A stretch of 64,000 nucleotides of DNA from Thermoleophilia bacterium (GTDB taxonomy: Bacteria > Actinomycetota > Thermoleophilia > Miltoncostaeales > Miltoncostaeaceae), in the NCBI GenBank assembly GCA_020848615.1, contig JADLHW010000086.1, positions 124,001 to 188,000 of the forward strand, in the 5' to 3' direction. How positions within the stretch are numbered: position 1 is the first letter of the stretch; the number at the start of each line of letters is the position of its first letter. Under the pieces are notes generated by a model, which was given only the letters and a program-made list of their open reading frames with translations, was not told the DNA's origin and did not search any database. The translations under genes were made by a program, and so were the position numbers. Positions 1 to 59,838 of this stretch are shown here, piece after piece.

Positions 1-785
1 ACCTCCAGGACGCCACCCGGCTCATCAACTACGACATCCACTGGAACCCTGTCCGGCTCATGCAGCGCATTGGTCGTGTCGATCGCCGCCTCAACCCCGA
101 CGTCGAGGCAAGGCTCGTAGCCGACCACCCCCAGGTGGCCGGGCAGCGGGGCCGAATAGCGTTCTGGAACTTCCTTCCCCCTGACGATCTCGACACGTTG
201 CTGCGCCTCTACGGCAAGGTCAGCCGCAAGACGCTTCTCATCTCCAAGACGCTCGGCATCGAGGGCAAGAAGCTGCTCAAGCCCGAGGACGACTACGAGG
301 CGCTTAAGGAGTTCAACTCGTCGTACGAGGGCGAGACGACCATTCAAGAGCAGCTGCACCTCGAGTACCAGGAGCTACTCGACCAGCACGATGGGCTTGA
401 GGAACGCCTCGCTGCACTGCCCAGGGCGATCTTCAGCGGACGGCAGCGGGCCTCCGAGGGCAGTCAAGGCGTGTTCTTCTGCTATCGGTTGCCTGCGCTC
501 GACACCGAGTTGGGTGAGTTTACCCTCGGAGCCGGCGTCACCCGCTGGTATCTCCACACCCTTGCCGCCGGCACGCTACTTGACGAAGCCCAGCAAATCG
601 CGGAGGCGATCCGATCGACCCCTGACACGCCGCGGCTTTGCGCGACCGAACGACCGCTACTGGTGAGCATCCGCGACGAGGTGGTCAGGCACATCAAGAA
701 CACCTACCTGAAACGGCTCGACGCACCAATCGGAGCACCCAAGCCGCAACTTGTGTGCTGGATGGAACTCAGCGCTGCGCCATGA
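1..785 (+). CDS. SNF2-type helicase, C-terminal part (truncated by window edge)
   Basis: The reading frame is open from base 3 to the stop at 783-785, giving about 260 residues without a start, so the N-terminus lies outside the window. The visible part begins in the second RecA-like domain: the sequence QRIGRVDRR at bases 60-86 is helicase motif VI of superfamily 2 SNF2-like enzymes, preceded by an INYDIHWNP stretch typical of motif V. About 220 residues follow with no domain I can name. The stop overlaps the ATG of the adenine methylase downstream by four bases (ATGA), so the two are almost certainly translated together. The helicase plus methylase arrangement fits restriction or DISARM/type ISP-like defence, where the helicase translocates on DNA; that role is inferred. 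The upstream gene content needed to name the system is not visible. Confidence 0.85.
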   Translation, partial: LQDATRLINYDIHWNPVRLMQRIGRVDRRLNPDVEARLVADHPQVAGQRGRIAFWNFLPPDDLDTLLRLYGKVSRKTLLISKTLGIEGKKLLKPEDDYEALKEFNSSYEGETTIQEQLHLEYQELLDQHDGLEERLAALPRAIFSGRQRASEGSQGVFFCYRLPALDTELGEFTLGAGVTRWYLHTLAAGTLLDEAQQIAEAIRSTPDTPRLCATERPLLVSIRDEVVRHIKNTYLKRLDAPIGAPKPQLVCWMELSAAP

Positions 786-3700
786 CGGCCCTCGACCCGA
801 ACCGCCTGCGAGATATCACATCCTTCGAGGACGTCATCCTATACCTCACCGACGAGCTCGACTGGCCCATCGACGCCGACGACCTCGAAGAAGCAACCTA
901 CGAATGGGACCCCGACGAGCTCGGCATCCCCGCCGACCGCGTGCCCCACCTCACCTCACTTCGCCAGCTCCGGCCACTCGAGACCAACCAGCCGTGGGGG
1001 ATCTTCTTCCTCGAGTTTGACGGGCCACGACTTCCACTCACCGCGCTGCGCCGACTGCTCGACAGGCTTGTGACCAAGAAGCGGGCGACGGGATCGGGCA
1101 CCCGCCGGACGTGGGATCTGAACGATCTGCTCTTCATCATCACGACGAGCACCGGCGACACCGTCGAGCTGCACTTCATCGCCTTCTTCGAGCAGCCCGG
1201 AAAGCCCGCCGAGATTCGCTCGATCCCGTGGCGACCTGGACAATCGCCCGCCCAGCACCTCAAGCGCCTCGCCACCGAGCTGCTTCCGCACCTCGCCTGG
1301 CCCGACGACCCAGAGGCGGTCGACGACTGGCGCTCTGAGTGGCGTGCCGCATTCACGCTGCGCCATGGTGAGGCCATCGCCTCCGCGATCCGTCTCGCCG
1401 AGCGTATGGCCGACACGGCCCAGGGGCTTCGCCGCGAGGTGGCCGCGGCATTGGCTGAGGAGAAGCCGAACGGTCCGTTCAACACCCTCATGGGGGAGGT
1501 GCGGGAGCAGCTCGTCGGCAGTGTTACCGCGGCGACCTTCGCTGACATGTGCGCGCAGACCCTGGTCTACGGGGTGCTCACGAGTCGCATCACCGACCCA
1601 GCCTCCTTTGGGGCGTCACCTACGCTCGCTGTCGTTCCGCTCTCGAACCCCTTCCTGGCGGCGTTCTTCGACGACGTGCACCACCAGGCCTCGGTGCTCG
1701 ATCTCGAAGGCATCGGCCTCGAGCAACTCGTCGCCGACCTTCGCGAGACGAACGTCGAGGCGATCCTTGATCAGTTCGGCGCCAGCGCCCGGGGCGGCGA
1801 TCCTGTCATCCACTTCTACGAGGAGTTCCTCCAACGCTACGACCGCAAGATGCGAGCCGATGCCGGCGCGTTCTATACGCCGCAGCCCGTCGTCGAGTTC
1901 ATGACCCGCACGGTGGACATCATCCTCCGGGACCGCTTCGGGCTCTCAGCGGGTGTCGCGGACGGCGCGTCCTGGGCTGAGGCCGCGGAGCGGAACGGCT
2001 TCGACGTGCCGAAGGGCGTCGAGCCATCGAGCCCGTTCGTGTCGATGGTGGACCCCGCAACGGGGACCGGTACCTTCGTCGTCGAATGGCTTCGCCGGGC
2101 ACGCGCTTCGTTCCTCCGCAGCGGGAAGGCGGCCGACTGGCCCGAGCACGCCCGCGAGGTGGTACTTCCCTCGCTGCACGCGTTCGAGCTGATGCTCGGC
2201 CCATACGCCATCGCACATCTCAAGGTCGCCCTCGAACTGCACGACGAGAACGTCGTCGACGAAGCCCCCAATCTCCTCCTCACCGATACGCTCGACCACG
2301 AGTCATACAAGCAGCTCCTGTTCGAAGACGATCCGGTGTCGGGGGAGGGCGAGCGGGCCGCCGCGCTGAAGGACGGCGCCCGGTTCACCGTGGTCATTGG
2401 CAACCCGCCTTATGACCGAGAGCAGAAGGACGTCGGCTCCACCGGCAAGCGCAAGGGAGGCATCGCCCGCTACGGGATGCCCGGGATTCCGCCGCTCATG
2501 AACGCCGTGCTCGGCCCACTCACTGCGGCGGGGCTCGGCAAGCACGCCAAGAACGCCTACAACGACTACGTCTACTTCTGGTGCTGGGCCGTTTGGCAGG
2601 CGGTCACCAAGCGCGAGGGACCCGGCGTTGTCGCGTTGATCACCGCCGCGTCCTACCTCGACGGCGTGTCACTCGGCGGGCTGCGCTCCCATCTGCGCGA
2701 CGTCTTCGACGAACTGTGGATCGTCGACCTCGGAGGCGAAGGCCGCGGTGCCCGGATTGACGAGAACGTCTTCGCCATCCGCACCCCGGTCGCAATCGCC
2801 TTCGGCATCCGCACCGGAGGGCAGCACAACGAGTGCGAGGTCCGGTACCTCGCGGTCGAGGGCACGCGGGACGAGAAGCTCGCTCAGCTCGGCAAGCTGG
2901 ACCTCATGGATGCTCCGACAGCAGAAATCGAGGGCGAAGGGCTGGCCCGGCTCACGCCGATCTCGGCAGCCAAGTATCACGAGTGGTCTGAGGTGACGGG
3001 CCTGTTCCCGTGGATCAACTCCGGGTGCCAGCTCAAACGGACCTGGCCCCTAGGGCCCGAAAAGTCGTTGGTTCGCAGGCGCTGGGACACCCTGCTGTCC
3101 GTTCCACCTTCCGAACGGCGCGAACTGATGCGGGAGACCCCTGACCGCAATACGACTGCGGGGGTGAAGTCTTTCCACAACGGAGCTGCCCTGAGGCAAC
3201 TGTCCAGTCTTCGCCACGGCTCCGAGCCAGACGGGCTGGAGAGGTACGCCTACCGCAGCTTTGATCGACAGTGGATCTTGTCCGACAACAGGCTGTCGGA
3301 TCGAGCCCGCCCGCCGCTTTGGAAGGCCAGGGGGCCACACCAGATCTACCTCACAATCCTCACCTCGACGAGGCTGGGCGCCGGACCTGCGGTCACCGCG
3401 ACGCCCTACGTTCCGGACCTCCATCACTTCAGGGGGTCCTACGGAGCGAGGGACGTGATGCCCCTCTACCGGGACCGACGAGGGAAGGAACCGAACGTCA
3501 CCAAAGGCCTCCTCGCGCTCCTTTCGGATGCCCTGGGCAGGGAGATCGAGCCCGAGCACCTCGTTGCCTACGTCTACGGGCTGACCGGAACATCGGCGTT
3601 CACTGCCCGGTTCTCACAAGAGCTCGGGGAGGCAGCCGGTCCGGTCCGGATCCCGATCACCGCGGATGCTCAGCTGTTCAACGCGGTGATCGGTGTCGGC

Positions 3701-4162
3701 AAAGAGCTCCTCTACCTCCACACGTGGGGAGAGCGCTTCGCTGATGGCCAAGAGATCCCGTCCCCGACCGCGAAGGAGATCACGCCGGTCGGCACGGTCT
3801 ACCCCGAGAAGTTCAAGTGGGACGCCGGTTCGCGGACCCTGACCGTCGGCAACGGTTCGTTCGGCCCGGTCAACCGCGAGATCTGGGAGTTTGAGGTCTC
3901 GGGCCTTCGGGCGCTCCAGTCATGGCTCGGCTACCGGATGAAGGGCGGCAAGGGGAAGAAGTCGAGCCCGCTCGACGAAATCCGCCCCGAGCGGTGGACG
4001 TTCACCCCCGAGCTGCTCACCCTGCTGGCCATCTTGGAGCAGACCGTCGCCCTCACGCCGCAAGCCGCCGAGTTGCTTGACCGAGTGGTGGCCGGCGACC
4101 TCATCGACCCCGCGATACTGCCTACCCCCACCGATGTCGAGCGCGAGCCCCCCAAGGCTTGA
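782..4162 (+). CDS. N6-adenine DNA methyltransferase with type ISP-like C-terminal domain
   Basis: This 1126-residue protein is an S-adenosylmethionine-dependent adenine methylase. The SAM-binding motif DPATGTGTF lies near residue 424 and the catalytic motif NPPY near residue 541, the order expected for gamma-class N6-adenine methylases. Residues of about 920-1126 (starting near LVAYVYGLTG, then RIPIT and ELLYLHTW) look like the C-terminal specificity domain of type ISP restriction enzymes. The first 350 residues are helical and unassigned. The ATG at 782 is chosen because it overlaps the helicase stop as ATGA; the frame is open further upstream but only as out-of-frame reading of the helicase gene. 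In single-chain type ISP enzymes, nuclease, helicase, methylase and recognition domain are one polypeptide; here helicase and methylase are separate chains. A class 1 DISARM DrmMI-like protein is the main alternative, but no drmA or drmB follows. Confidence 0.88.
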   Translation: MTALDPNRLRDITSFEDVILYLTDELDWPIDADDLEEATYEWDPDELGIPADRVPHLTSLRQLRPLETNQPWGIFFLEFDGPRLPLTALRRLLDRLVTKKRATGSGTRRTWDLNDLLFIITTSTGDTVELHFIAFFEQPGKPAEIRSIPWRPGQSPAQHLKRLATELLPHLAWPDDPEAVDDWRSEWRAAFTLRHGEAIASAIRLAERMADTAQGLRREVAAALAEEKPNGPFNTLMGEVREQLVGSVTAATFADMCAQTLVYGVLTSRITDPASFGASPTLAVVPLSNPFLAAFFDDVHHQASVLDLEGIGLEQLVADLRETNVEAILDQFGASARGGDPVIHFYEEFLQRYDRKMRADAGAFYTPQPVVEFMTRTVDIILRDRFGLSAGVADGASWAEAAERNGFDVPKGVEPSSPFVSMVDPATGTGTFVVEWLRRARASFLRSGKAADWPEHAREVVLPSLHAFELMLGPYAIAHLKVALELHDENVVDEAPNLLLTDTLDHESYKQLLFEDDPVSGEGERAAALKDGARFTVVIGNPPYDREQKDVGSTGKRKGGIARYGMPGIPPLMNAVLGPLTAAGLGKHAKNAYNDYVYFWCWAVWQAVTKREGPGVVALITAASYLDGVSLGGLRSHLRDVFDELWIVDLGGEGRGARIDENVFAIRTPVAIAFGIRTGGQHNECEVRYLAVEGTRDEKLAQLGKLDLMDAPTAEIEGEGLARLTPISAAKYHEWSEVTGLFPWINSGCQLKRTWPLGPEKSLVRRRWDTLLSVPPSERRELMRETPDRNTTAGVKSFHNGAALRQLSSLRHGSEPDGLERYAYRSFDRQWILSDNRLSDRARPPLWKARGPHQIYLTILTSTRLGAGPAVTATPYVPDLHHFRGSYGARDVMPLYRDRRGKEPNVTKGLLALLSDALGREIEPEHLVAYVYGLTGTSAFTARFSQELGEAAGPVRIPITADAQLFNAVIGVGKELLYLHTWGERFADGQEIPSPTAKEITPVGTVYPEKFKWDAGSRTLTVGNGSFGPVNREIWEFEVSGLRALQSWLGYRMKGGKGKKSSPLDEIRPERWTFTPELLTLLAILEQTVALTPQAAELLDRVVAGDLIDPAILPTPTDVEREPPKA

Positions 4163-4381
4163 CCGTGATGCACTGCGAACGACCGTCGCTCCGGGGCCAG
4201 TGCAAGCCGTCGCTCTCGTGCTTCGACGGCCCGCCGTTCCTGCTTCCAACGCCCGAGCCAGTGGGACCGCTCTCCTCGCGGGCGGCTGGCCGGTCGATCC
4301 CCCCGGACACTCGGGCGAACCACATCGGTTGCCGCGTACCCCGCCTCGCGGCGTGCGAGGTTCCCGGTACTGTTTCCTGGC

Positions 4382-4981
4382 ATGAGGACCGTGATATCCG
4401 AATCCGTTGCTGGGACCGTGCGCCGACGCGTCGAACGGGCGCGTCCGGGCACGTTCTTCCTGCGCCGTGACTTCGAGGGCAGCGACCGGGCGGTGGAGTC
4501 CGCCTTGAGCAGACTCGCCGCCGAGGGGCGGCTGGTCAGGGTGCGGCGTGGCCTCTACTGGCGAGGCAAGAAGACGCGGTTCGGGATGACGCATCCATCG
4601 GTGCTGCAGGCGGCGATCGCGGTCGGGGGGCCGGGATCCGGTCCATCGGGTGCCGCCGCAGCACACCTGCTCGGGCTGACCACGCAGGTCCCCAGCACGG
4701 TGGATGTCGCCGTGCCGGGCAAGACACCGGAGCCCATGCGAGGGGTCAGGTTCCGGTCACGGCCGTACTCGCGGCGTGAACGGCGTCTGACCCCGATCGA
4801 GGTGGCCGTGCTGGAGGTGCTGCGCGACCCGGGTGCCAGCGAGGCGCCGCCGTCACAGGTCGCCGCCCGAATCCAAGAGTTGATCGCCGACCGCGCTGTG
4901 CGAGCCGACGTGCTTGACGCCGTGGTTGCGGCTGAACCCCGCGTGACGGCCCGGAAGGCCTGGGCGGCGGCTGCGAGCTGA
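4382..4981 (+). CDS. AbiEi/DUF6088-like antitoxin-type winged-helix protein, orphan
   Basis: A 199-residue protein whose N-terminus (about 15-60) forms a winged-helix with the pattern F-L-R-R-D-F, then LSRLAAEGRLVRVRRGLYW, which is the hallmark of AbiEi-type antitoxins and the related DUF6088 family. The middle part (SGAAAAHLLGLTTQVP, then VDVAVPG) also matches that family. AbiEi proteins repress their own operon and neutralise an AbiEii nucleotidyltransferase in type IV toxin-antitoxin systems. No AbiEii-like gene lies next to it; the nearest nucleotidyltransferases are at 15.4 and 17.9 kb with their own HEPN partners. It may therefore be a stray regulator or the remnant of a split system. 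The 219 bases upstream and 160 bases downstream show no other gene. Confidence 0.75.
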   Translation: MRTVISESVAGTVRRRVERARPGTFFLRRDFEGSDRAVESALSRLAAEGRLVRVRRGLYWRGKKTRFGMTHPSVLQAAIAVGGPGSGPSGAAAAHLLGLTTQVPSTVDVAVPGKTPEPMRGVRFRSRPYSRRERRLTPIEVAVLEVLRDPGASEAPPSQVAARIQELIADRAVRADVLDAVVAAEPRVTARKAWAAAAS

Positions 4982-5143
4982 GGAACGACCGTCTCATCGA
5001 TGGTCGGGACGGCGTCGCCACGCTGGCGGGCGTCGGTCGCGCAACAGAGAGCGAGAACTAGGCTTCCGTCGTATGGCAGGGCGTGGGCGCACCATGAGAC
5101 GCTCCCAGACGGCATCAGCGACCGCGCCTCCGGGAGGTGACGA

Positions 5144-7450
5144 GTGAAGCCGGCGACGCATACCGTCAACGAGCTCTTCGAACGCGACGTGCGATATGTG
5201 GTCCCGCTCTTCCAGCGCCCCTACGTCTGGGATGCCGCGAGCCAATGGGAACCGCTCTGGAACGACGTCTGCGTGCTGCTGGAGCACCTCGAGGGCGGAT
5301 CGGAGGACCAGCCGCTTTCGCACTTCCTCGGCGCGATCGTTCTCGAGCAGGAGCTCACGCCCCCGGGTGCCATCCCAGTATTCACCGTCATCGACGGGCA
5401 GCAAAGACTCACCACCCTTCAGATCCTCCTGGCCGCCGCATCTGCGGCTCTCGCGGTGGCTGGAACGGACGATGACTCTCACCTGCTCAGCGAGCTGATC
5501 CGCAACAACCCTCGCAAGGCGACCGGCGACGACGTGTTCAAGGTCTGGCCGACGAACGCCAACAGGGGGGCGTTCGCGGCAGTGATGTCCCCTGGCGGGC
5601 CTCCCGTGAGCCGGGAAGACGACCCAGACAACAACATCGACGAGGCCTTCACATTCTTCTCGGAGCGCATCGTCGACTGGCTCGCCGACGGTGACGTCGA
5701 GCAGCGTGCACGAGCCCTCCGCATCACTCTGGTCGACTTGCTCAAGCTCGTCTCCATCACCTTGGAGCCCGGAGACAACGCTCAGGTCATCTTCGAGACC
5801 CTGAACGCCCGTGGAACGCCTCTCCTCGCCCTTGACCTGGTCAAGAACGCGCTGTTCCACGCGATGTCCCGTGAGGGTCTCGCAGCGGAAGAGCTGTACG
5901 AGTCGCGCTGGCGCCCTGAGCTGGACGACGACTACTGGCGCGAGCTCATCGTCCAAGGGCGACTCACGAGGCCGCGTGGGGAGCTGTTCCTCATGCATTG
6001 GTTGAGCATGAAACTCCGACGTGTGATCCCGGCGACCGAACTCTTCACGATGTTCCGTCGTGACATCCTGGACCGCACGCCGACGCGAGACGTTCCGGAC
6101 CTCATCGTCGAGATCTGCCGAGACGCCCGGATCATGCGGAGCTTCGACACGGCGGACCCCGCAAGCCTCGAGGGACGCTTCTTCCAGAGGCTTCAGATCC
6201 TCGACACCACCACCGTGCTCCCCCTGATCCTGCTGCTCTTCCGTGAGCCGGCAGTGACCGACGGGGAACGTCGACGCGCCCTCGCCATCATCGAGAGCTG
6301 GCTGGTCCGTCGCGGCCTGATGCGCCTCACGACTCGTGCGTACAACCGAGAGGTGCCGCGGATGCTGGCGCAGGTGGCGGCCCATCCCGAGTCGGCGGCG
6401 CGGCTTCTCCTGAACTACCTGCAGGGAAGCGAAGGCCTGGCCGCTCGGTGGCCCTCGGATACCGAGATTCACGGGTACCTCTCGGCCCAGCGCGTCTACG
6501 GTGTCGTCGCTCAGAAGCGCCTCGTGATGGCCCTCACTGCGATCGAACAGGCGATGCAGTCTGGCAAGAGCGACGCCGCCCCGGGCACCGACCTTTCGAT
6601 CGAGCACGTCATGCCACAGAAGTGGTCGACCGCATGGCCATTGCCCGCTGACACCGACGAAGCCGAGGCTGTGGCGCGTAGGAACGCGCTGGTCCACCGC
6701 CTCGGCAACCTCACGCTCGTCGCACAGCCCCTCAACGCTGCTCTCTCGAACGGCCGTTGGGAGAACAAGAAGAAGCAGCTGAACAGTCACACCCGCCTGT
6801 TCCTGAACGTCGACATCCTGGACCGCTACCCGGATGCGTTCGATGAGTCGGCGATCGAGGAGCGGTCGACGTGGCTGGCCGACGCAATCTGCCGGATCTG
6901 GCCGGGACCCGGGGATGGGTGCTGGACGGACGGCAGCGACGTGGAGCACCCCCGGGTGACCAGGCTCGCAGACGCCCCTGTCGCCCATCCGGCCGCCGGC
7001 TCGAAGGCGTCCCGGTCCATTCCGGTCGCGCATGTCGACGACGGGGAGGTGAGCCCGGAGATCATGGAACGAATTGTCCGGGCCTACCACGAGGAGGGGA
7101 TCGATCGCGGAGAAGTCCTTCGGGAGCGCTTCGGACTCGAGCGATCGGCCCATTACGACGCGCTCTACCGTGGAGAGCCGCTCGTCTACCCGCATATCCG
7201 GCTTGAGGCGACGGTCCATGACGTCGTGGCCGCCCGCGAGGGGACCCTCCCACCGGCCCGGCTCATCCCGGGTGAGCATCCACAACTGCGCTGGGAACGG
7301 ATCGCGGCCCGCGCCGAGGCCACCGTGACTGAAGTGAAGGCCGTCTTCGAGGCCGGGCGCGGCGACGGCGCCGCGAGACTCAGCTACACGGGCCGTGGTC
7401 GGCGATTCGAGGGCATGACGGATCGAGTTGGCGACGTCCCCGAAGACTGA
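5144..7450 (+). CDS. GmrSD-like DUF262/DUF1524 (HNH) defence protein with extra C-terminal domain
   Basis: The 768-residue product begins with a DUF262 (ParB/GmrS-like nucleotide-binding) domain: VPLFQRPYVW near residue 18 and IDGQQRLTT near residue 83. A DUF1524 HNH-type nuclease domain follows, with IEHVMPQ near residue 486, HRLGNLTL near 519 and NGRWENKK near 540. This is the single-chain architecture of GmrSD-type type IV restriction enzymes, which cleave DNA containing modified bases such as glucosylated hydroxymethylcytosine; the substrate here is unknown. Residues 600-768 are an additional region with no family I recognise. The start is a GTG at 5144 preceded by the strong ribosome site GGGAGGTGA at 5132-5140. 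It stands alone, with gaps on both sides. Confidence 0.88.
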   Translation: MKPATHTVNELFERDVRYVVPLFQRPYVWDAASQWEPLWNDVCVLLEHLEGGSEDQPLSHFLGAIVLEQELTPPGAIPVFTVIDGQQRLTTLQILLAAASAALAVAGTDDDSHLLSELIRNNPRKATGDDVFKVWPTNANRGAFAAVMSPGGPPVSREDDPDNNIDEAFTFFSERIVDWLADGDVEQRARALRITLVDLLKLVSITLEPGDNAQVIFETLNARGTPLLALDLVKNALFHAMSREGLAAEELYESRWRPELDDDYWRELIVQGRLTRPRGELFLMHWLSMKLRRVIPATELFTMFRRDILDRTPTRDVPDLIVEICRDARIMRSFDTADPASLEGRFFQRLQILDTTTVLPLILLLFREPAVTDGERRRALAIIESWLVRRGLMRLTTRAYNREVPRMLAQVAAHPESAARLLLNYLQGSEGLAARWPSDTEIHGYLSAQRVYGVVAQKRLVMALTAIEQAMQSGKSDAAPGTDLSIEHVMPQKWSTAWPLPADTDEAEAVARRNALVHRLGNLTLVAQPLNAALSNGRWENKKKQLNSHTRLFLNVDILDRYPDAFDESAIEERSTWLADAICRIWPGPGDGCWTDGSDVEHPRVTRLADAPVAHPAAGSKASRSIPVAHVDDGEVSPEIMERIVRAYHEEGIDRGEVLRERFGLERSAHYDALYRGEPLVYPHIRLEATVHDVVAAREGTLPPARLIPGEHPQLRWERIAARAEATVTEVKAVFEAGRGDGAARLSYTGRGRRFEGMTDRVGDVPED

Positions 7451-8906: not shown

Positions 8907-11714
8907 GTGCCCCTCACCGTCATCCATGGGACCACCATCACCGACCCCCGCGCCGGGCTGGCGGTGGTGCGAGATGCCGACGCTGCAGGGCAGCTCCAGC
9001 GACAGCTGATCCACGTCGGCGGTGCACCGGAAGGGCTGGAGGTCGTCACGATGGGTGCTCTGCGCGCCCGGGTTGCCGTGGCGGCCGGGATCGCGAACGA
9101 GACGGGCGGCGGCCCGCTGGCAACCCGGGTCGGGCTGCGCTCGGCCGCACGGCGGGTCGACCTCGCGCCGCTGGGCGCGTCCGCGTCGGCACCCGGCTTT
9201 CTGAGCGCGCTGGAGCGGGCGGTCGGGGAGCTGCGGGAGGCGGACGTCGACCCGGTGCGCCTCGCCGAAGCGGCGACCGAGGGAAGCACCAGGACGATCG
9301 CGCAGATCGCCCTGGCGGCGGGTGACGTTCCATTCCCGGTCGACGGGCGGTGGGCGACGGCCCGTGCCGCGGAGACGCTGACCGCGTTCCCAGCCGTGAC
9401 GCTCGTGGGCTTCGACGACATCCCACCCCCGGACTGGGCGCTGCTGCGGGCCCTGGGGCGGATCACGGACGTGACGGTGGTGATGCCGTACGCGGCGGGC
9501 CGACGGGCGTTCGAGGCCCGTCACGAACGGCACGCCCGATGGGCGGCGGACGCGGACGTCGTCCGGGTTGGGGAGCCCGTGGGCGACGGACGGGACGGCG
9601 GACTCGCCGCGTTGGCGGCGTGTCTGTTCGAGGACGTCCCCCCGCCGCAGGCCGCGGCGGGGGCGCCGGTGCGGCTGGTGGGGGCCGCGGGGACACGCGG
9701 GATGCACCGGGCCGCGCTGATGGAGGCGCTGACTGCGCACGAGGCGGGTGTGCCGCTGGCCGAGTGCGCGGTGGTGGTGCCGCGCCTCGCCGACGCGCGG
9801 GACGACCTGGACCGCCTCGCCGCGGAGTGGGGGATCCCGGTGCGGCGGGTGACGCGGCGACGGGTCGTGGAGACCCCGATCGGTGTGGCGCTGCTGGCGC
9901 TGCTGCGGCTCGGTGAGCTGAACGCGGGCGCGCCGGGTGCCCTGGACGAGCTGCTCCGGTGGCTGCGGAGTCCGTACTCCGGTGCGGACCCCGGGGAGGT
10001 CGACCGGTTCGAGGTCGACGCGCGACGCGCGGGCCTGGATGAGCGGCGGGAGCTGATCGGCCGGTGGGACGGGGAGGCCATCACGCCTGCCCGGCGGCTG
10101 GTGGCCGCCGCGCGTGACGGCGTGGGCGCGCAGATCGCGGCGATGGTCGACGTCGGGTGGGAGGGCCTGCGGCGCGCCGCCGGGGGACGGCTTCCCATCA
10201 CCGCGGACGTCCTGGACCGTGCCGCGCTGGCGGTGCTCGGCGGTGCCGGGGCCGATGTGGATGACGACCCGGAGGCGGCGCCGTCGGTGGAGCGGCCCCG
10301 AGGGCCGCTGCCGCCCGGTGAGCTGGGGCAGGTGCTCGCCGACCTCACGATCCGGGACGAGGCCGGCCCCATGAATGGGCTGCAGCTGCACGACTACGCG
10401 TCGGTGCGGGGCCGGCGGTTCCGGGTCGTGGTGCTGTGCGGCCTGGACGGCGACGGGGTCCCCGGCCGGCCGGCACCCGACCCGATCCTGGGGCCGCTGC
10501 GGGCGGCGCTTGCTGACCTGCCGCCGCCGCGGGCGCCCGGGACCTCCGAGCAGCGGCTGCGGTTCTGGCACGCCGTGAACGCGGCCACCGAGCGGCTGGT
10601 GCTGGTGCGGCGCCTGGTGGACGACGACGGCCGTGAGCTCGCGCCGTCGCCGTACTGGGTGGAGACCTGCCGCGTGACCGGCCGCGGCGTCGACGACCTG
10701 GATCGCCGCACCGGGTCGCGCGGTGAGGTCCTCGACGACGAGGAGGTGGTGCCGTGCGAGGCGGAGGTGCTGCGGCACCTCGCGGTGACCGGGCGGGTCA
10801 CGGCCGGGCCCTTGGCGGAGGCCGCCGGGCGGCGGGTGCGGCGCCGCGGCGTGCCGCCCGACGCGTTCGCGGGCGTGGACGCGATGCGGGTGACGGACCT
10901 GGAGACGTTCCTTCGCTGCCCGTACGGGTGGCTCATCGACCGGTACATCGGCCCGCGGGAGATGGAGCGGGCATTCGACGCGGCCGCCGAGGGGACCCTC
11001 GCTCACGAGGTGATGCAGCAGGTCTACGCCGCCATGCGCGACGGTGGGGTCGGGGCGTGCACCGCCGCGACTCTCGACGTGTACCTCGCCGAGCTTGAGC
11101 GGGTGCTTCCTTCGGTGGCGGACGCGCGGCGGCCCCGGCGGGCGGCGGCGAGCTACGAGGCGTTCATCCACCGCCTCGGCGTGTACCTGCGGCTGGTGCT
11201 CAGCCGGGAGGCGCAGCTGGGCATGCGGATGCGACCCCGCTGGCTTGAGCAGGGTCTTGAGGACCCGCGGCTGCTGGGCGTGAGCCCCGGGATCACGCTG
11301 CGCGGCACGGTCGACCGCATCGACGTCGACGACGACGGCAACCTGGTGGTCATCGACTACAAGCGCAGCGGTGCCCGCCTGCGGCCCGACGGGCCGCTGC
11401 TGGAGCGCCTGCAGCTGCCGCTGTACGGGCTGCTGGCGTCCCTGTCGCTGGACGGCGGGTCGCTGCGTCCCGCCGGCGGGTTCTACGTGGGGCTGCTGAA
11501 GGACGAGCGCGACGGGGCGATCCGCGACGACGTCCCCTATGCCGACGGGGTGCCGGCCCGGCAGCGGTACGCCCCCGCCGACTGGGACCGGCTGGTCGAT
11601 GAGGCCCGCCAGGCGGCGATGGGCGTGGCGCGCGACATCCGCGCCGGGGTGCTCGCCGCGCCGCCCACCCGGCCGTGTCCCCCCTGGTGCGGGTGCGGTG
11701 TGCTGTGGCGGTGA
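8907..11714 (+). CDS. AddB-like Fe-S PD-(D/E)XK nuclease with degenerate helicase domain
   Basis: A 935-residue AddB/RecB-nuclease relative. No Walker A motif is seen at the N-terminus, so the helicase-like part appears inactive, unlike canonical AddB which keeps an ATP site. The nuclease domain is at the C-terminus: the VIDYK motif places the catalytic Asp and Lys near residues 817 and 819. A cysteine in FLRCPYGW (residue 671) and three at the extreme C-terminus (924, 928, 930) encircle the nuclease domain, the layout of the iron-sulphur staple of AddB, AdnB and Cas4-type nucleases, although the C-terminal spacing here (CX3CXC) is unusual. GTG at 8907 is the start. The stop overlaps the start of the AddA-like gene, so the two form a complex for double-strand break resection. 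GC content is high, like the core genes to the right. Confidence 0.83.
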   Translation: MPLTVIHGTTITDPRAGLAVVRDADAAGQLQRQLIHVGGAPEGLEVVTMGALRARVAVAAGIANETGGGPLATRVGLRSAARRVDLAPLGASASAPGFLSALERAVGELREADVDPVRLAEAATEGSTRTIAQIALAAGDVPFPVDGRWATARAAETLTAFPAVTLVGFDDIPPPDWALLRALGRITDVTVVMPYAAGRRAFEARHERHARWAADADVVRVGEPVGDGRDGGLAALAACLFEDVPPPQAAAGAPVRLVGAAGTRGMHRAALMEALTAHEAGVPLAECAVVVPRLADARDDLDRLAAEWGIPVRRVTRRRVVETPIGVALLALLRLGELNAGAPGALDELLRWLRSPYSGADPGEVDRFEVDARRAGLDERRELIGRWDGEAITPARRLVAAARDGVGAQIAAMVDVGWEGLRRAAGGRLPITADVLDRAALAVLGGAGADVDDDPEAAPSVERPRGPLPPGELGQVLADLTIRDEAGPMNGLQLHDYASVRGRRFRVVVLCGLDGDGVPGRPAPDPILGPLRAALADLPPPRAPGTSEQRLRFWHAVNAATERLVLVRRLVDDDGRELAPSPYWVETCRVTGRGVDDLDRRTGSRGEVLDDEEVVPCEAEVLRHLAVTGRVTAGPLAEAAGRRVRRRGVPPDAFAGVDAMRVTDLETFLRCPYGWLIDRYIGPREMERAFDAAAEGTLAHEVMQQVYAAMRDGGVGACTAATLDVYLAELERVLPSVADARRPRRAAASYEAFIHRLGVYLRLVLSREAQLGMRMRPRWLEQGLEDPRLLGVSPGITLRGTVDRIDVDDDGNLVVIDYKRSGARLRPDGPLLERLQLPLYGLLASLSLDGGSLRPAGGFYVGLLKDERDGAIRDDVPYADGVPARQRYAPADWDRLVDEARQAAMGVARDIRAGVLAAPPTRPCPPWCGCGVLWR

Positions 11715-14700
11715 TGCGCCCCACACCCGAGCAGGCCCGTGTGCTGGGAGCCACCGGGGCACGCGTCCCCGTCGCCGCGGGGGCGGGCAGCGGCAAGACC
11801 ACCCTGCTGGTGGAGCGCATCTGGCGGGACCTCACCGAGGACGGCCTGCGGCTGGAGGACCTGTTCGTCGCGACCTACAACCGGGCGGCGGCCGCGCACA
11901 TCACGGCCCGCATCCAGGCGCGGTTCGCGGACCCCGACGGCGGCCTGCCCCGCGACCGGGCGTGCCTGGACCCCTCTGCCGGGTGGATCGGCACGTTCCA
12001 CTCCCTCTGCGCCCGCATCGTGCGGGAGCACCCGTTCACCGCCGGCGTCGACCCGCTGTTCGGTGAGCTCGACGACGCCGAGGCCGCCGCCCTGGTCGAG
12101 GAGGCCCTGGACCTCGCGATGGCGGAGGTCGACCACGACGGCCTGCACCACATGCTGAGCCACGCCGGGTCCACGGGCACGATCCGGGCCGCGGTCATCG
12201 GGGCGCACGACCGGCTGCGGGCCGCCGGGATGGCGCACCCGGCCATCCGTGTGCCCGCGCCGCGGGCCACCGACGACGACGCCCTGCAGCGGTTGCGCGA
12301 CCTGGTCGCGGCGATCGACGCCCACCCCGACCGCAACGACCGGCACGGGGCGGGCATCGACGCGATCCGGGCGATGCTCACCGGCGGGGCCTCCACCCCC
12401 ACCGCCCCGTGCATCAACCGGGTCGCCAGGGCCGCGGTGAAGGACCTGATCGTGGAGGCCGACGACCTGGCCGAGGCGATCTGGACGACGCTGGTGGAGC
12501 GGGAGTCCCACCCGCAGCTGGAGGGCTTCGCCCTGCTGCTGGACGCGTTCGCCGGCCACTATGCGCGGCTGAAGGCCGAGCGCGGCGCCCTCGACTATGA
12601 GGATCTGCAGCTCGCCGCCCTGCGGGTCCTGACCGCCGGCCACCCGTACCGGTTCGCGCGGGTGTACGTCGATGAGTTCCAGGACGCCAACGCCGTCCAG
12701 GACCGCATCATCGAGGCGCTTGGTGCCGAGCGCACCACTGTCGTCGGTGACGGGGCGCAGGCGATCTACGGGTTCCGGCACGCCAGCGCCGAGCACTTCA
12801 TGACTCGCATCGGCGAGGCCCCCGAGCTGACGCTGCGCGACAACCACCGCAGCCAGCCGCAGCTGATGACTGCCCTCAACGCGCTGCTGGGGGAGGTGAT
12901 GCGCGGCCAGCGGGCGTTCGCGCCCCTCACCCCCGGCGCCCGCCCCGACCCCGATGCGCCGCCGATGCTCGACCCGCCCGTCGAGCTGATCACCGTCGTC
13001 TCCACCGAGGGTGACGCGACGCGGGAGCAGGAGGCCAAGGTCGTCGCCGACCAGGTCAGGCGGTTCCTGGACCACGGGTACCGGCCGCGGGACATCGCCG
13101 TCCTGTTCCGGTCGCTGACGGCCGTCGAGCCGTACCGCGCCGCCCTCACCGCGCGCGATGTCCCGGTGCACCTGGTGGCGGGCGCCGGGTTCTTCACCCA
13201 CGAGCAGGTCGCCGACGTCCTCGCCCTGCTCGCGCTCGTCGAGAACCCCCACGACGAGCCCGCCCTGGTGCGGGTCCTCGCCGGCCCGCACATCGGCGGG
13301 AGCGACACCGACCTGGTCGACCTGCGACGGGCCGCGCCCGACGGTGGCCCGCTGTGGCCCGCCGCCGCCACCGTGCCCACCCTGGCGGGGATCGTCCCGC
13401 TGCGGGACGGGCTGCTGCCGGTGCTGCGCGAGCAAGGGCTGGCGGCGCTCGTGGAGGCCGCCATCGGGTGCGCCGGGTACGACCTGGCGGTGCTGGGGTG
13501 GCCCGACGGGCCCCGCCGGTACGCGAACCTGCGGCGCCTGGCGCGGATGGCCGAGCGGTTCGCCGCGGTCCGGGGGCCGGACCTGCGCGGCTTCCTGTCG
13601 GCGATGGACACCCTCGCCGCCGACCCGCGCCTCGACCCCGGCGAGGCGGTGCTCGTCGACCCCGACCTCGACGCCGTGAGGCTCGCCACGATCCACTCGG
13701 TGAAGGGCCAGCAGTTCCCCGTCGTGATCCTCGCCGACGCGTCCCACGGCACCCCCGGCCAGTACCCGGCGGTGCTCGTCGACCAGGACGGCAACGCCGG
13801 TCTGCGCGCCCAGCGCGCCGACGGCGACAACGCCGACGTCCTCGGCTACGCCCAGCTGAAGGACGCCGCCAACCGCGCGGCATCCGACGAGGAGCGACGG
13901 GTGCTCTACGTCGCCCTGACCCGCGCGATGCGGCACGCCCAGGTCATCGGCCGGGCGGAGCGCAAGGGCGGCGGCGTCAGCACGATGTACACCCTCGCCG
14001 CCGAGGCCGCCGGCACCGGCCTGCCCGGCGTCGCCGTTGAGCGGCGTGAGGTGCCCGCCGTCGAGGTGCCCGACCGCAAGCCGCCGCCCGTCGCGCCCCC
14101 CGCGGTGGAGGTGCCGGCGCCCGTGATCCCGCCCGCGCCGGTCGTCGACCCGATCGGCGGGATGCGGTTGTCGTTCAGCGCCCTCGCCACGTTCGCCACG
14201 TGCCCGCGGCGGTTCCACCTGGAGGTCGAGCGCGGGTTGCCGCAATCCCGGGAACACATCGGCGTGCCGGGCGCCGGCGACGGCTCGGGCACGGCTGTCG
14301 GCACCCTGGTGCACGCCGCCCTCGCGGAGCACGCGTGGGGCGGGTCACCGCCCTCGGCCGGATGGGCCCGTGCACGCGCAGCGGGTCTGGGCCTCGAGGT
14401 GCCGGAGGCCGGTCTCGCGCGTGCGGAGCGGCTGGTCGACGCGGTCCTCGCCGACCCCCTCGCGGAACGGATCGCCAACGGCGTCGAGGTGCTGGCGGAG
14501 CAGCCGTTCGCGATCGAGGTGGACGGCGTCGTCCAGACCGGAGCCATCGATCTTCAGGTTCGCGAGGCGGACGGGACCCTGCTGGTCATCGACTGGAAGA
14601 CCCACACGCTGGTCGAGCGCACCGCCGAGCAGGTGATGGACGCGTACCGGCTGCAGCAGTCCGTCTACGGCCTCGCGGCGCTGCGGGGCGGCGCCGAGCC

Positions 14701-14947
14701 CGTGGAGTTGCGGTGGGTGTTCCCCGAGGCCCTCAACGAGCCGCAGGTCCGGCTCGTCAGCCATGCCGACACCCCCGCTCTCGAACGGGAAATCGGTGAT
14801 CGGCTTCAGGCGATTCGCGGCGTGGAGCGCAACCCCATCGTGGATACCATCTCGGTCGTGTGCGCGGCATGCCCCGGGCTCGATGCGTTCTGTCCCGTGG
14901 GTACCGCCGCCCTGCGTGCCCCGGAAGGAATGCCCGATGTCGGCTGA
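11714..14947 (+). CDS. AddA-like UvrD helicase-nuclease with Fe-S-type cysteines
   Basis: The 1077-residue product is a superfamily 1A helicase fused to a PD-(D/E)XK nuclease. Walker A AGAGSGKTT is at residues of about 22-30, the DEXX-box equivalent VDEFQD near 319, and the late helicase motif containing TIHSVKGQQF lies near 660. The nuclease core VIDWK is near residue 959. Cysteine 830 (CPRRF) and cysteines 1050, 1053 and 1060 match the C, CX2C, X6, C iron-sulphur pattern known for AddB/AdnB nucleases. With its partner it should unwind and trim broken DNA ends for recombination, as AddAB or mycobacterial AdnAB do. ATG 11714 overlaps the upstream stop by one base; a GTG at 11711 (GTGA overlap) is an alternative. 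A frame-broken small gene begins inside its 3' end. Confidence 0.88.
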   Translation: MRPTPEQARVLGATGARVPVAAGAGSGKTTLLVERIWRDLTEDGLRLEDLFVATYNRAAAAHITARIQARFADPDGGLPRDRACLDPSAGWIGTFHSLCARIVREHPFTAGVDPLFGELDDAEAAALVEEALDLAMAEVDHDGLHHMLSHAGSTGTIRAAVIGAHDRLRAAGMAHPAIRVPAPRATDDDALQRLRDLVAAIDAHPDRNDRHGAGIDAIRAMLTGGASTPTAPCINRVARAAVKDLIVEADDLAEAIWTTLVERESHPQLEGFALLLDAFAGHYARLKAERGALDYEDLQLAALRVLTAGHPYRFARVYVDEFQDANAVQDRIIEALGAERTTVVGDGAQAIYGFRHASAEHFMTRIGEAPELTLRDNHRSQPQLMTALNALLGEVMRGQRAFAPLTPGARPDPDAPPMLDPPVELITVVSTEGDATREQEAKVVADQVRRFLDHGYRPRDIAVLFRSLTAVEPYRAALTARDVPVHLVAGAGFFTHEQVADVLALLALVENPHDEPALVRVLAGPHIGGSDTDLVDLRRAAPDGGPLWPAAATVPTLAGIVPLRDGLLPVLREQGLAALVEAAIGCAGYDLAVLGWPDGPRRYANLRRLARMAERFAAVRGPDLRGFLSAMDTLAADPRLDPGEAVLVDPDLDAVRLATIHSVKGQQFPVVILADASHGTPGQYPAVLVDQDGNAGLRAQRADGDNADVLGYAQLKDAANRAASDEERRVLYVALTRAMRHAQVIGRAERKGGGVSTMYTLAAEAAGTGLPGVAVERREVPAVEVPDRKPPPVAPPAVEVPAPVIPPAPVVDPIGGMRLSFSALATFATCPRRFHLEVERGLPQSREHIGVPGAGDGSGTAVGTLVHAALAEHAWGGSPPSAGWARARAAGLGLEVPEAGLARAERLVDAVLADPLAERIANGVEVLAEQPFAIEVDGVVQTGAIDLQVREADGTLLVIDWKTHTLVERTAEQVMDAYRLQQSVYGLAALRGGAEPVELRWVFPEALNEPQVRLVSHADTPALEREIGDRLQAIRGVERNPIVDTISVVCAACPGLDAFCPVGTAALRAPEGMPDVG

Positions 14948-15393: not shown

Positions 15394-16029
15394 ATGGACG
15401 TCTCCGCTCCGCACCACATCATCACCCTTCCCGTCGACGCGGACGTGCTGCGGGCGCTCGCCGGCGTGGACGCTGAACTCACGGGGAGGCAGGTCACCGA
15501 ACTCACCCGGGGTGGCCACTCCGGAACCGTGTACCGCTCCCTGGAGCGCCTCACGCGCCTGGGATTGCTGCATTCCCGGAAGGCGGGACGCGCCAGCCTC
15601 TACCGATTCAACCGGGAGCACCTCGCCGGCGACGCGGTGATGGCGCTCGTCTCCCTCCGGTCGGCCATGCTCACCGAACTTCGCGACGCGATCGCCCGGC
15701 TCGACCCGCCGCCGGTGTCCGCGGCGCTATTCGGCTCCGCCGCCCGGGGCGATGGGGGGCCCGACAGCGACCTGGACATCGCCATCATCGGCGGTCCGGG
15801 TGACGCCGACCCCGCCACGCGACGCGCATGGGACGCGCAGATCGATGCCATGACCACGACGCTGGAACGGCGCCTGGGAAACCGGATCGGCGTCCACGAG
15901 ATCGGCCCCGCGGACGCCATCCGCCTGGCCGCATCCCGCCCGCCGGTTGTCGCCGAGATCCTGGCGGACCAGGTGCCGTTGTTCGGCCGGCCCATCGCGG
16001 AGATCCTCGGGGACGGGAGCGGACGCTGA
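15394..16029 (+). CDS. Winged-helix plus MNT-type nucleotidyltransferase
   Basis: A 211-residue two-domain protein. Residues of about 15-80 form a winged-helix DNA-binding domain (GTVYRSLERLTRLGLL, then RASLYRFNREHL). Residues 105-200 are a minimal nucleotidyltransferase: GSAARG at 114-119, then S125-D126 and D128 supply the GS and DXD signature needed for metal and nucleotide binding. Such proteins pair with HEPN-like partners in toxin-antitoxin modules, where the nucleotidyltransferase adds nucleotides to, and silences, the HEPN RNase. The next gene overlaps its stop by four bases. The paired palindromes just upstream are the likely target of its DNA-binding domain. No classical ribosome site is seen, so the message may be leaderless from the ATG at 15394. 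Confidence 0.85.
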   Translation: MDVSAPHHIITLPVDADVLRALAGVDAELTGRQVTELTRGGHSGTVYRSLERLTRLGLLHSRKAGRASLYRFNREHLAGDAVMALVSLRSAMLTELRDAIARLDPPPVSAALFGSAARGDGGPDSDLDIAIIGGPGDADPATRRAWDAQIDAMTTTLERRLGNRIGVHEIGPADAIRLAASRPPVVAEILADQVPLFGRPIAEILGDGSGR

Positions 16030-16448
16030 GCCCACCTCGGCAGCGCACCGCCCCCTGCACCGTCGCGGACGCGCGATTCCGTCTCGCCCAGGCGCGCAAG
16101 TTCCACGAGGTCGCCCTGGTCGCGGCCGCCGAGGAGGAGATCCACGAGTCCATCGGGTGCGCGGCCGCACTCGAGGTGCTCGCCGGGATCGCCGCGTCCG
16201 ACGCCGCCTGCTGCGCCGCGCTCGGGCAACGCTCCCGCACGGACAACCACATGGATGCGGCCAAGCTCTTGGAGCAGATCGTGATTCCCGACGAGGCACC
16301 CGCCGCGAACGCGCTGCGACGCATGCCGCGCGGAAAGGACAACGCGCACTACGGCCTCGATCGGATCTCCAAGAGGACGCTTCTGCCGCTGCAGCGGCAG
16401 GCGGCCACGCTCATCGCGTTTGCGAACGAGGTTCTCGCGGGTCGCTGA
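16026..16448 (+). CDS. HEPN-like partner of the HTH-nucleotidyltransferase, possible CTG start
   Basis: About 140 residues, almost all alpha-helical. ADARFRLAQARKFHEVA, SDAACCAALGQRSRTDNH and ANALRRMPRGKDNAHY resemble small actinobacterial proteins encoded next to HTH-nucleotidyltransferases. RSRTDNH satisfies the R-X4-6-H pattern of HEPN RNases, so it is probably the toxin or regulated partner; that is inference. No ATG or GTG exists in frame between the preceding gene's interior and residue 75. A CTG at 16026 overlaps the upstream stop as CTGA and lies eight bases after GGGAG, which makes it the best start candidate; a lost start codon or a further indel are alternatives. Confidence 0.65.
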   Translation: MSPPRQRTAPCTVADARFRLAQARKFHEVALVAAAEEEIHESIGCAAALEVLAGIAASDAACCAALGQRSRTDNHMDAAKLLEQIVIPDEAPAANALRRMPRGKDNAHYGLDRISKRTLLPLQRQAATLIAFANEVLAGR

Positions 16449-16817
16449 CGACGGCGACCGTTGGACCATCACCCGAGATGCTCAGGGGCCTCCGATCCGT
16501 CCTCTGCCACCCGGCAACCGCCGGCGCCGGCGGCCGGTCACGAGCTCGGCTGCCGCACGCCTCGGATCAGGGCTGCGGGCCGAGCTCCCAGGTTGTGGAG
16601 TCGCCAGCGCAGCGTCGGCCGACACGCCGAACGCATGGGGCAGGGGCTCCCACGCCGGCAGTCTGAATTCGAAGACGTGCAACCGCCGCGGAATCGCTCG
16701 CGGGAAGCGTGACCGCTTCGGTCAGCGTCGAGCGGCGGCCGCTGGTTCAGACTAACCCGTCGCCTGCGGCTCGACCTCGCAGTCGCCGCGCCAACCACCC
16801 CGAACGGAGCCGTGCCC
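16449..16817. other. 369-bp gap, no convincing gene
   Basis: A minus-strand frame near 16500-16680 reads HVFEFRLPAWEPLP in a protein-like way, but it lacks a proper start and shifts frame near 16590, so it may be a gene remnant. The last 50 bases hold the leader and GGAG ribosome site of the next gene. Confidence 0.35.
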
Positions 16818-17549
16818 ATGTCGCTTCGCTGTGTCGTCTGGAATGCCGAGTGGGCCAGGCCAGACTCCCTGAAGGGCAGGCGGTTCGCCGCGAAACTCGC
16901 CGCGCTCGCGCCGGATGTCGTCTGCCTCACCGAGGGCTTCGCCGGTCTGATGCCCGCCGGTGGAGTCACCGAGACCGGTCCCGTCCCGGGCAACGCCCCG
17001 CGCTCCGACGCCCGGCGGGTGCTGCTGTGGAGTCGCTTCCCGATGCGCGATGTGGACGGTGTTGGACACCCCGACCTGCCGCACGAGGCGTGGGTTTCGG
17101 CGACGCTCGACACGCCGCTCGGCGATGTCTCCGTCGCGTGCGTCTGCATCCCGTGGTGGGACGCCGAGGTCGCCCGTTTCGGGGGGACGAAGGACCGCTG
17201 GCAGGTGCACATGGAGTACCTGGCGCTGCTCCCCGAGGTGATGGCGCCGCTTCGTGATCGCGGGCCGCTCGTGGTGGCGGGCGACTACAACCAGTTCCTG
17301 CCGCCCGCCTGGGCCCCGAAGGTCGCCGCTCAGGCGCTCGCAGACGCGTTCACCGGCATGCCGATCGCCACCACGGGCGCGACGGACCCTGGTGGACGGG
17401 GGCTCATCGACCACCTCGCGCACACGCCGAATCTCACAGCAGACGTTGTGGAGACTTGGGGCGGCTGGGGCGACTCGGGCCCGATGAGCGACCACTCGGG
17501 CGTCCTTCTCGACATCCGACGCGGTGAGACTAGTCGTCCACCGCGATGA
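16818..17549 (+). CDS. Endonuclease/exonuclease/phosphatase family protein
   Basis: A 243-residue member of the EEP fold. The expected motifs appear in order: WNAEWA near the N-terminus, LTEGF near residue 37 supplying the catalytic Glu, GDYNQF near 153 and SDHSGV near 230 with the catalytic His. It therefore hydrolyses phosphodiester or phosphomonoester bonds; nucleic acid or a small phosphate could be the substrate. ATG 16818 is preferred over GTG 16812 because GGAG at 16806-16809 is then eight bases away. It lies between two nucleotidyltransferase/HEPN modules, and its 3' end overlaps the convergent HepT gene by 20 bases. A defence role is possible from context only. Confidence 0.85.
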   Translation: MSLRCVVWNAEWARPDSLKGRRFAAKLAALAPDVVCLTEGFAGLMPAGGVTETGPVPGNAPRSDARRVLLWSRFPMRDVDGVGHPDLPHEAWVSATLDTPLGDVSVACVCIPWWDAEVARFGGTKDRWQVHMEYLALLPEVMAPLRDRGPLVVAGDYNQFLPPAWAPKVAAQALADAFTGMPIATTGATDPGGRGLIDHLAHTPNLTADVVETWGGWGDSGPMSDHSGVLLDIRRGETSRPPR

Positions 17550-17868
17550 TTGATGCGATGGCCGCCCTGAGCGGCTCGATGTCCTCGGTCACCACTCGCC
17601 AGACGAGCCCGAGGATGAGGCGCCGGTAGTCGTGGATAAGCACATTGCGGTGCGCAACGAGCGACGACCAGGGCACCTCGTCGTGGCTCGTTCGGAGTTC
17701 CGGCGACAGTCGGCCCGCGGCCTCGCCGAGGATCTCGAGGTTCCGGATGACGGCGTCCTGCCGCATGGTCTCCGCCATGAACGCCGCCTCACCGGCCGCG
17801 GCGTACTCGGTGATCCGGTCGATCGCCTCCGCCATGTGCTGGAGGCGGTCACGGTCCTCCGGAGTCAC
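17530..17868 (-). CDS. hepT: HepT-like HEPN RNase toxin
   Basis: A 112-residue DUF86/HepT-family protein. The catalytic motif R-X4-H-X-Y is intact as RNVLIHDY with Arg74, His79 and Tyr81. HepT cleaves RNA, and the MntA partner inactivates it by transferring AMP groups to the tyrosine of this motif; the tyrosine is present here, so that mechanism is possible. GTG 17868 overlaps the MntA stop as GTGA. The length is normal for the family. The 3' end overlaps the convergent endonuclease/exonuclease/phosphatase gene by 20 bp. Confidence 0.9.
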   Translation of the reverse strand: MTPEDRDRLQHMAEAIDRITEYAAAGEAAFMAETMRQDAVIRNLEILGEAAGRLSPELRTSHDEVPWSSLVAHRNVLIHDYRRLILGLVWRVVTEDIEPLRAAIASIIAVDD

Positions 17869-18269
17869 AGGGCCACGGCGTCCACGCTCAGACGCTCCCG
17901 CAGCCCCATTTCACGGGGAGACTCGCCGGTGGGCGGCGGGCCCGCGAACTCGGGGATCACATCGACCGAGCAGCCGAGCAGCGATTCCAGCTCCGCCTGC
18001 AGCAACGCGAGGTCGGTGAGACGGGCGCTGGACGGGAAACGCACCAGGAAGTCCACGTCCGAGGTGACAGACGCCGTCGCCCGCGCGACCGATCCCACCA
18101 CGCGGACGTCGCTCGCGCCATATCCGTTCGCGAGCCGGAGAATGTCCTCACGGCGCTGCTTGAGTGACTCCAGGGACGGCGGCGGACCGCTGGGCGCAGC
18201 CGCGGGCGCGATTCGCTCGAGCAGTTCGGCGAGGGCGCGTGTGGCAGCGAAGGGTGGGGCCGTGGCCAT
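17865..18269 (-). CDS. mntA: MntA-like nucleotidyltransferase antitoxin
   Basis: A 134-residue minimal nucleotidyltransferase. GSVAR (59-63) followed by SDVDF (70-74) gives the GSX(10)DXD signature with both carboxylates intact. It is the first gene of a two-gene minus-strand operon with HepT, overlapping it by four bases, and would silence HepT by AMPylation. ATG 18269 is the first methionine giving a normal length; the frame extends further upstream but into the opposite-strand phospholipase D gene. No strong ribosome site precedes the ATG. It is divergent from the phospholipase D gene, with about 90 bp between them. Confidence 0.88.
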   Translation of the reverse strand: MATAPPFAATRALAELLERIAPAAAPSGPPPSLESLKQRREDILRLANGYGASDVRVVGSVARATASVTSDVDFLVRFPSSARLTDLALLQAELESLLGCSVDVIPEFAGPPPTGESPREMGLRERLSVDAVAL

Positions 18270-18356
18270 GCGCCGATGGTCCCAGAGCCATCGGTCGGCG
18301 CCAAGCCCTCGATGCCCACGAGCTACGGTCCAGGTGCCCGCGATACGGTTGCGATC

Positions 18357-59662: not shown

Positions 59663-59826
59663 GTGGTTCTCTCCCGGTCGTTTGACGGTCGCGTGGGGAG
59701 GTGCGCTGGAGTATCGGCAGCGACGTTTGGGCACTCCACGATGGAGCTGTTCGGGTTTCGTCAAGACCCGTCCCCGGAATGCACACAATTGGTCCGCTCC
59801 CGCCCCGTCGGGTCCGGGCCCGTCAC

Positions 59827-59832
59827 TACGCT
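59827..59832 (+). promoter_or_regulatory. Possible -10 box before UvrD2-like gene
   Basis: TACGCT with six bases to the ATG at 59839; no ribosome site. Confidence 0.4.
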
Positions 59833-59838
59833 CACCGG

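Follow-up and report, generated by a model that had tools for sequence, protein, structure and literature searches.

A Thermoleophilia AddAB-Type Helicase-Nuclease with Cysteine Staples in Both Nuclease Domains and a Putatively Displaced Fourth Ligand in AddB

The Gene Pair and Its Domains

Two adjacent genes, encoding an AddB-like and an AddA-like chain, lie on the forward strand of the window, the 64,000-nt stretch of contig JADLHW010000086.1 of a Thermoleophilia bacterium (assembly GCA_020848615.1) that was analysed here (Table 1). They meet in a TGATG junction, in which the AddB stop overlaps the likely AddA start, and the same B-then-A gene order was found in the class relatives. The open frame of the A chain begins further upstream, at GTG 11675 (11675-14947), and residue numbers of this chain (C843, H880, etc.) are counted from that codon, not from ATG 11714.

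Pfam searches located a PD-(D/E)XK nuclease domain (PF12705, PDDEXK_1) in both chains, at residues 662-928 of the B chain (5e-31) and residues 831-1067 of the A chain (7.4e-22). Together with the positions of the cysteines, these matches bore out the preliminary description, in which both nucleases were said to be bracketed by cysteines. The UvrD-helicase and UvrD_C domains were matched in the A chain only; with a Walker A motif and the helicase motifs all present, this chain is an intact SF1A helicase, and the B chain resembles a helicase but has no motor, in keeping with the initial claim of a single motor chain. Such a combination of two nucleases with a single active motor is the usual layout of AddAB enzymes.

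Table 1. Features of the gene pair and neighboring genes, in window coordinates.
Feature	Position	Strand	Remarks
Type IIG/ISP restriction-modification enzyme	638-4162		
AbiEi-like gene	4382-4981		
GmrSD-like enzyme	5144-7450		
AddB-like chain	8907..11714	+	935 aa, GTG start; inactivated helicase fold, C-terminal PD-(D/E)XK nuclease
AddB N-terminus	8907..8972	+	P-loop (mostly degenerate in relatives) and following helix missing
AddB nuclease domain, aa 662-928	10890..11690	+	H700, D803, D817, K819, Q836, Y840 present
AddB C671	10917..10919	+	First staple Cys; invariant
AddB C-terminal motif CPPWCGCGVLWR	11676..11711	+	C924, C928, C930 (+2); W934 at canonical fourth-Cys position (+6)
AddA-like chain	11714..14947	+	1077 aa, counted from likely start ATG 11714
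AddA Walker A GAGSGKT	11780..11800	+	Sole P-loop of the pair
AddA nuclease domain, aa 831-1067	14165..14875	+	H880, D959, D973, K975, Q994, Y998 invariant among relatives
AddA C843	14201..14203	+	First staple Cys
AddA CX2CX6C triad	14861..14893	+	C1063, C1066, C1073; putative metal site
MNT-type nucleotidyltransferase with HTH	15394-16029		Just after AddA
HepT-like gene	17530-17868	-	

Family Assignment and Genomic Setting

Profile comparison, in which the chains were profiled together with their class relatives, gave the B chain 222 bits against AddB versus 110 bits against AdnA, and the A chain 520 bits against AddA versus 318 bits against AdnB. RecB scored far below AddA with the A-chain profile, and nucleases are present in both chains of the pair. 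The top fold match of an AF2 model of the B chain (pLDDT 77) was AddB (4cei_B, 5.5e-27), with AdnA (7sjr_A) at 8.3e-21, and AdnB-type chains formed a separate 100/100 clade in the A-chain tree. Neither chain reached the NCBIfam equivalog cut-offs for AddA and AddB. By profile, fold, and tree, the pair is AddAB-type; of the original label, "AddAB/AdnAB-like", the first half stood, and the second was overturned by the same profiles, fold match, and tree.

By PF12705, the pair is the sole two-chain helicase-nuclease of the genome. The one other match is a UvrD helicase fused to a Cys-bracketed, Cas4-like nuclease on contig C44 (L148:1057-4011, - strand); related fusions occur widely across the family, also in a sister species (G001), which shows no AddAB. 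A single-protein scan of genome contigs with the B chain gave no match, and an alignment-based scan returned mainly generic UvrD/AddA relatives. According to the B-chain profile, the pair is patchy in the family (2/12 genera).

Upstream of AddB lies a defence-island-like run (window 1-7450 and upstream L149:5985-12783), which includes an AAA ATPase, subtilase genes, and a PLD-SNF2 helicase, and whose G+C content, about 65-68% in the window part, is below that of the rest. The MNT-type and HepT-like genes that follow AddA (window 15394-18319) are probably of the toxin-antitoxin type. The pairs of the class relatives, as well as that of genome G393 (see below), are situated among metabolic and repair genes. 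Elsewhere, the window encodes a UvrD helicase that ends in an HRDC domain (59701-62499), and a single protein that combines RCC1 repeats with RTX-type calcium-binding nonapeptides (34610-36703).

Two other views of the locus were weighed against these data. An AdnAB-type identity would be in line with the frequency of AdnAB among Actinomycetota, with the four cysteines carried by AdnA, and with the occurrence of the A-chain cysteines in two AdnAB-type loci (L182 and L183). However, AddAB outscores AdnAB for both chains, the AdnB-type chains sit apart in their 100/100 clade, and a P-loop-like motif is retained in AdnA-type chains but missing from the window's B chain. AdnAB membership was rejected on the profile scores and the separate AdnB-type clade, and is regarded as highly improbable. 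A pair that serves mainly in anti-phage defence, rather than in housekeeping recombination, might be suspected from its type IIG restriction enzyme, GmrSD-like, AbiEi-like, and MNT/HepT-type neighbors and from its patchy distribution. This role appears improbable, given the metabolic and repair gene surroundings in the class relatives and G393, and given that PF12705 revealed no other two-chain helicase-nuclease in the genome. A role in housekeeping repair is favoured over one in defence.

Cysteine Staples in the AddA Nucleases

The A chain carries one cysteine before (C843) and three cysteines after (C1063, C1066, and C1073) its PD-(D/E)XK core, which is the iron-staple pattern. Three or more cysteines in the terminal stretch would be expected with p of about 3e-4 for either chain, given its own cysteine rate. 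The four A-chain cysteines were found to be invariant in 17/17 class relatives, and a pair with four cysteines in each chain was observed in all fully readable class relatives that were first examined. In a wider set, both parts of the A-chain pattern were present in 33 chains, the N-terminal cysteine only in two, the triad only in none, and neither part in 26. The co-occurrence (Fisher p 3e-15) is descriptive, the relatives not being independent of each other; this nearly all-or-none behavior suggests a single metal site.

The A-chain cysteines also occur in another group of the same phylum (family f25). Outside this phylum, they were seen in single loci of Bacillota (L057 and L061), Planctomycetota (L058), Ignavibacteriota (L062 and L065), and Myxococcota (L064). 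They are missing from many other chains, among them L150-L152 and the mycobacterial-type AdnB chains (L177-L181). The tree requires seven gains or losses, at least four of them on supported branches. The loci L150-L152 (G012, G025, and G010) belong to other genera of the window's family and encode a conventional AddAB with an A chain that has none of the staple cysteines, so that this family holds two kinds of AddAB; most of its sampled genomes show neither. In the AdnAB-type loci L182 and L183, a real P-loop is present in the B-type chain, and the four staple cysteines are present in the A-type (AdnB) chain; these loci possibly represent a dual-staple AdnAB.

The premise that AddA normally lacks these cysteines proved sound for the canonical B. 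subtilis AddA, in a partial PDB alignment; the same is true of AdnB, both in M. smegmatis (again a partial PDB alignment) and in the AdnB-type chains mentioned above. The proposal that two Fe-S nucleases with one motor would make a distinct variant did not survive, as the pairing of two cysteine-stapled chains is general in the class, is found in a second group of its phylum, and turns up again in four other phyla. The dual staple is common, and is not private to the window locus. No earlier mention of an AddA staple surfaced in the literature searched, whose reach stopped short of Yeeles 2009 (AddB Fe-S) and Sinha 2009 (AdnAB). The characterised AddAB and AdnAB enzymes have one stapled chain each, and many AddAB turn out to have two; this, and the changes of the A-chain staple on supported branches of the sampled tree, should be weighed before results from B. 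subtilis or mycobacteria are generalised.

The Displaced Fourth Cysteine of AddB

The B-chain cysteines are C671, C924, C928, and C930. The class-norm AddB end is C..CX3CX5C-R or close to it, whereas the window's AddB has CX3CXC. With positions counted from C928, the canonical +6 cysteine is absent: Trp934 occupies this place, and C930 lies at +2. The C-terminal cluster, flagged as unusual from the outset, is indeed so, and can be described more precisely: since the normal fourth cysteine is Trp934, CX3CXC represents a displaced fourth cysteine, not just an odd spacing. The missing +6 cysteine is a motif variant rather than a defining loss, and the other features keep the pair AddAB-type.

Similar ends were found in relatives. 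The AddB of the nearest relative, G289 (L192), whose A chain is 42% identical to that of the window, ends in CPPYCNHKFVWR, that of G393 (L213) ends in CPRYCLHGLVWR, and that of a sister genus of the same family (g9) ends in CX4CGH, with Ser at +6. In canonical chains, the +2 residue is neither Cys nor His in 45/47, and is mostly Phe, Leu, or Tyr. In families f7/f47 (L200, L206, and L208), a +2 His stands beside a retained +6 Cys, which is a plausible intermediate state; this coexistence also means that the +2 residue need not be a ligand.

The B-chain tree was computed with a mixture model, with the motif columns omitted and L192 included; G393 was found after the trees. This tree placed the sister genus in one clade with the window and L192 (99/94), within which the latter two were grouped (99/98); the A-chain tree grouped the window with the sister genus (95/98). 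G393 is linked to the lineage through its 49% identity to L192. An earlier B-chain tree, in which the sister genus was drawn to AdnA by a long branch, was discarded; the artifact vanished when L192 was added, the motif columns were dropped, and the mixture model was used. Equivalents of C671, C924, and C928 are kept across the clade, and +2 holds a Cys or a His wherever that end has been sequenced. In the AddA of G393 (L215:8094-12119, - strand), all four staple cysteines were lost together, and the AddB of this genome keeps CX3CXH. A sequencing error at Trp934 was considered and rejected: the same Trp, paired with a His at +2, is present in each of two independent genomes, and the clade that joins L192 and g9 to the window indicates that the change is real. 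The swapping of Cys and His at +2 suggests that a metal ligand has been displaced, and a single origin of this putative Cys-or-His ligand is the simplest reading of the sequences.

Loss of the AddB Nucleotide Site

The AddB chains of relatives have a GPANAGK-like loop or a true GPTGSGKT, whereas the window's AddB has neither the loop nor the helix that follows. No Walker A motif was found in the B chain, whose frame opens just three codons upstream of the start, and a hidden upstream P-loop or a frameshift was rejected, as no P-loop is present in any frame. In the AF2 model, the strand formed by residues 3-7 leads straight to that of residues 17-21, with no P-loop helix between them. The preliminary description had stated that the AddB-like chain lacks Walker A, and had named an ATP site in its N-terminus as evidence that would speak against its reading; the upstream frames and the model agree with the statement, and neither revealed such a site. 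In L192, L213, and the sister genus, the P-loop is not canonical.

A nucleotide is bound at the equivalent site of B. subtilis AddB, where mutations that should prevent ATP binding make the Chi complex weaker but leave the efficiency of recognition unchanged; Chi recognition by AddB and the ionic latch residues of AddAB have been described (PMC4824097). By analogy with these results, the P-loop-less AddB is predicted to work without nucleotide.

Proposed Mechanism and the Nature of the Metal Sites

Taken together, the data favor a coupled AddAB with two stapled nucleases, in which the fourth AddB ligand moved from +6 to +2 and the vestigial ATP site was lost (rough probability, 0.65). The chain identities, the catalytic residues of both nucleases, the A-chain motor, and the cysteine pattern with its phylogenetic distribution can be read directly from the sequences, and the remainder is put conditionally. 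The pair would be an AddAB-type enzyme for the resection of double-strand breaks, with translational coupling between its genes, and its chains presumably form a complex. AddA would provide one nuclease and the sole ATP-driven motor, of 3'-5' polarity going by its family, and AddB, an inactivated helicase fold, would act as a scanner or scaffold and contribute the second nuclease. Each nuclease domain would be held together by its cysteine staple, for which an Fe-S cluster is the likeliest identity, with the fourth AddB ligand of this small lineage probably provided by Cys or His at +2 rather than by Cys at +6. Each nuclease may cut one strand, by analogy with AddAB, and the pair may respond to Chi. 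With the vestigial site lost, AddB should neither bind nor need nucleotide.

The content of the AddB site may be questioned. In the window lineage, the site might hold structural zinc (Cys4 or Cys3His), with AddA keeping Fe-S. Interchange of Cys and His, as seen here at +2, is a common trait of zinc sites. The same nuclease fold can bind zinc, as reported for the four-Cys RecB-fold nuclease 3L0A (PMC3466216), which the fold search with the A-chain nuclease also matched, and the Fe-S assignment is for this reason kept conditional. However, C671, C924, and C928 preserve the staple pattern, and the characterised AddB and Cas4 members contain Fe-S (PMC3466216), making zinc possible but unlikely. 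Alternatively, the AddB staple might be decaying, with the fourth cysteine lost, C930 incidental, no metal site in AddB, and the AddA staple compensating. Decay would accommodate the replacement of the fourth cysteine by Trp or Ser, the low confidence of the C-terminal tail in the AF2 model, unreliable around the motif (residues 918-922 and 931-935 are below 50), and the complete loss of the AddB cysteines in the alphaproteobacterial loci L073, L086, and L127. It appears rather improbable, as the clade keeps the C671/C924/C928 equivalents and always has Cys or His at +2 where the end is sequenced, and as G393 retains the AddB motif despite losing the entire A-chain staple.

A stapled AddB with a displaced ligand remains the preferred reading. 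A more specific proposal stands at about even odds: in one lineage of AddAB enzymes, an AddB independent of nucleotide would have a staple of new geometry, CX3CX[C/H], and its AddA would have a second, canonical one. If true, nature would offer a series for studying cluster function, consisting of the canonical dual staple, the displaced dual staple, and the displaced AddB staple only (G393). With its displaced ligand and P-loop-less AddB, the lineage would also lend itself to asking whether the staple plays a structural or a redox role, and whether AddB must bind ATP to hold Chi.

Comparison with Known Systems

B. subtilis AddAB (PDB 3U44 and 4CEJ), which gave the top profile and fold matches, shares with the window pair a motor-plus-nuclease chain and an inactivated-helicase chain with an Fe-S-stapled nuclease. 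However, its AddA has no staple, and its AddB contains both a nucleotide site and the fourth cysteine at the canonical position. M. smegmatis AdnAB (PDB 6PPJ and 7SJR) likewise has two nuclease chains, with four cysteines in the AdnA nuclease, but its AdnB is unstapled, both of its chains are motor-like, and it differs in its lower scores and separate clade. The Cas4-family nucleases and UvrD-Cas4 fusions (Hudaiberdiev 2017, PMC5704561) share a PD-(D/E)XK nuclease flanked by one cysteine on one side and three on the other; these proteins, in contrast, are stand-alone or single-chain.

The true close relatives are the dual four-Cys AddAB of the class (e.g., L029-L046 and L193-L209), with the same B-A gene order and the four AddA cysteines. 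Their AddB differs: it has CX3CX5C or a similar spacing, includes the +6 Cys, and shows a P-loop-like motif, which is mostly degenerate. G289, G393, and the sister genus share with the window an AddB without a canonical P-loop, with Cys or His at +2, and with no +6 Cys. Their +2 residue is His, whereas that of the window is Cys; in addition, the AddA of G393 has no staple, and the AddB of the sister genus has the CX4C spacing and Ser at +6.
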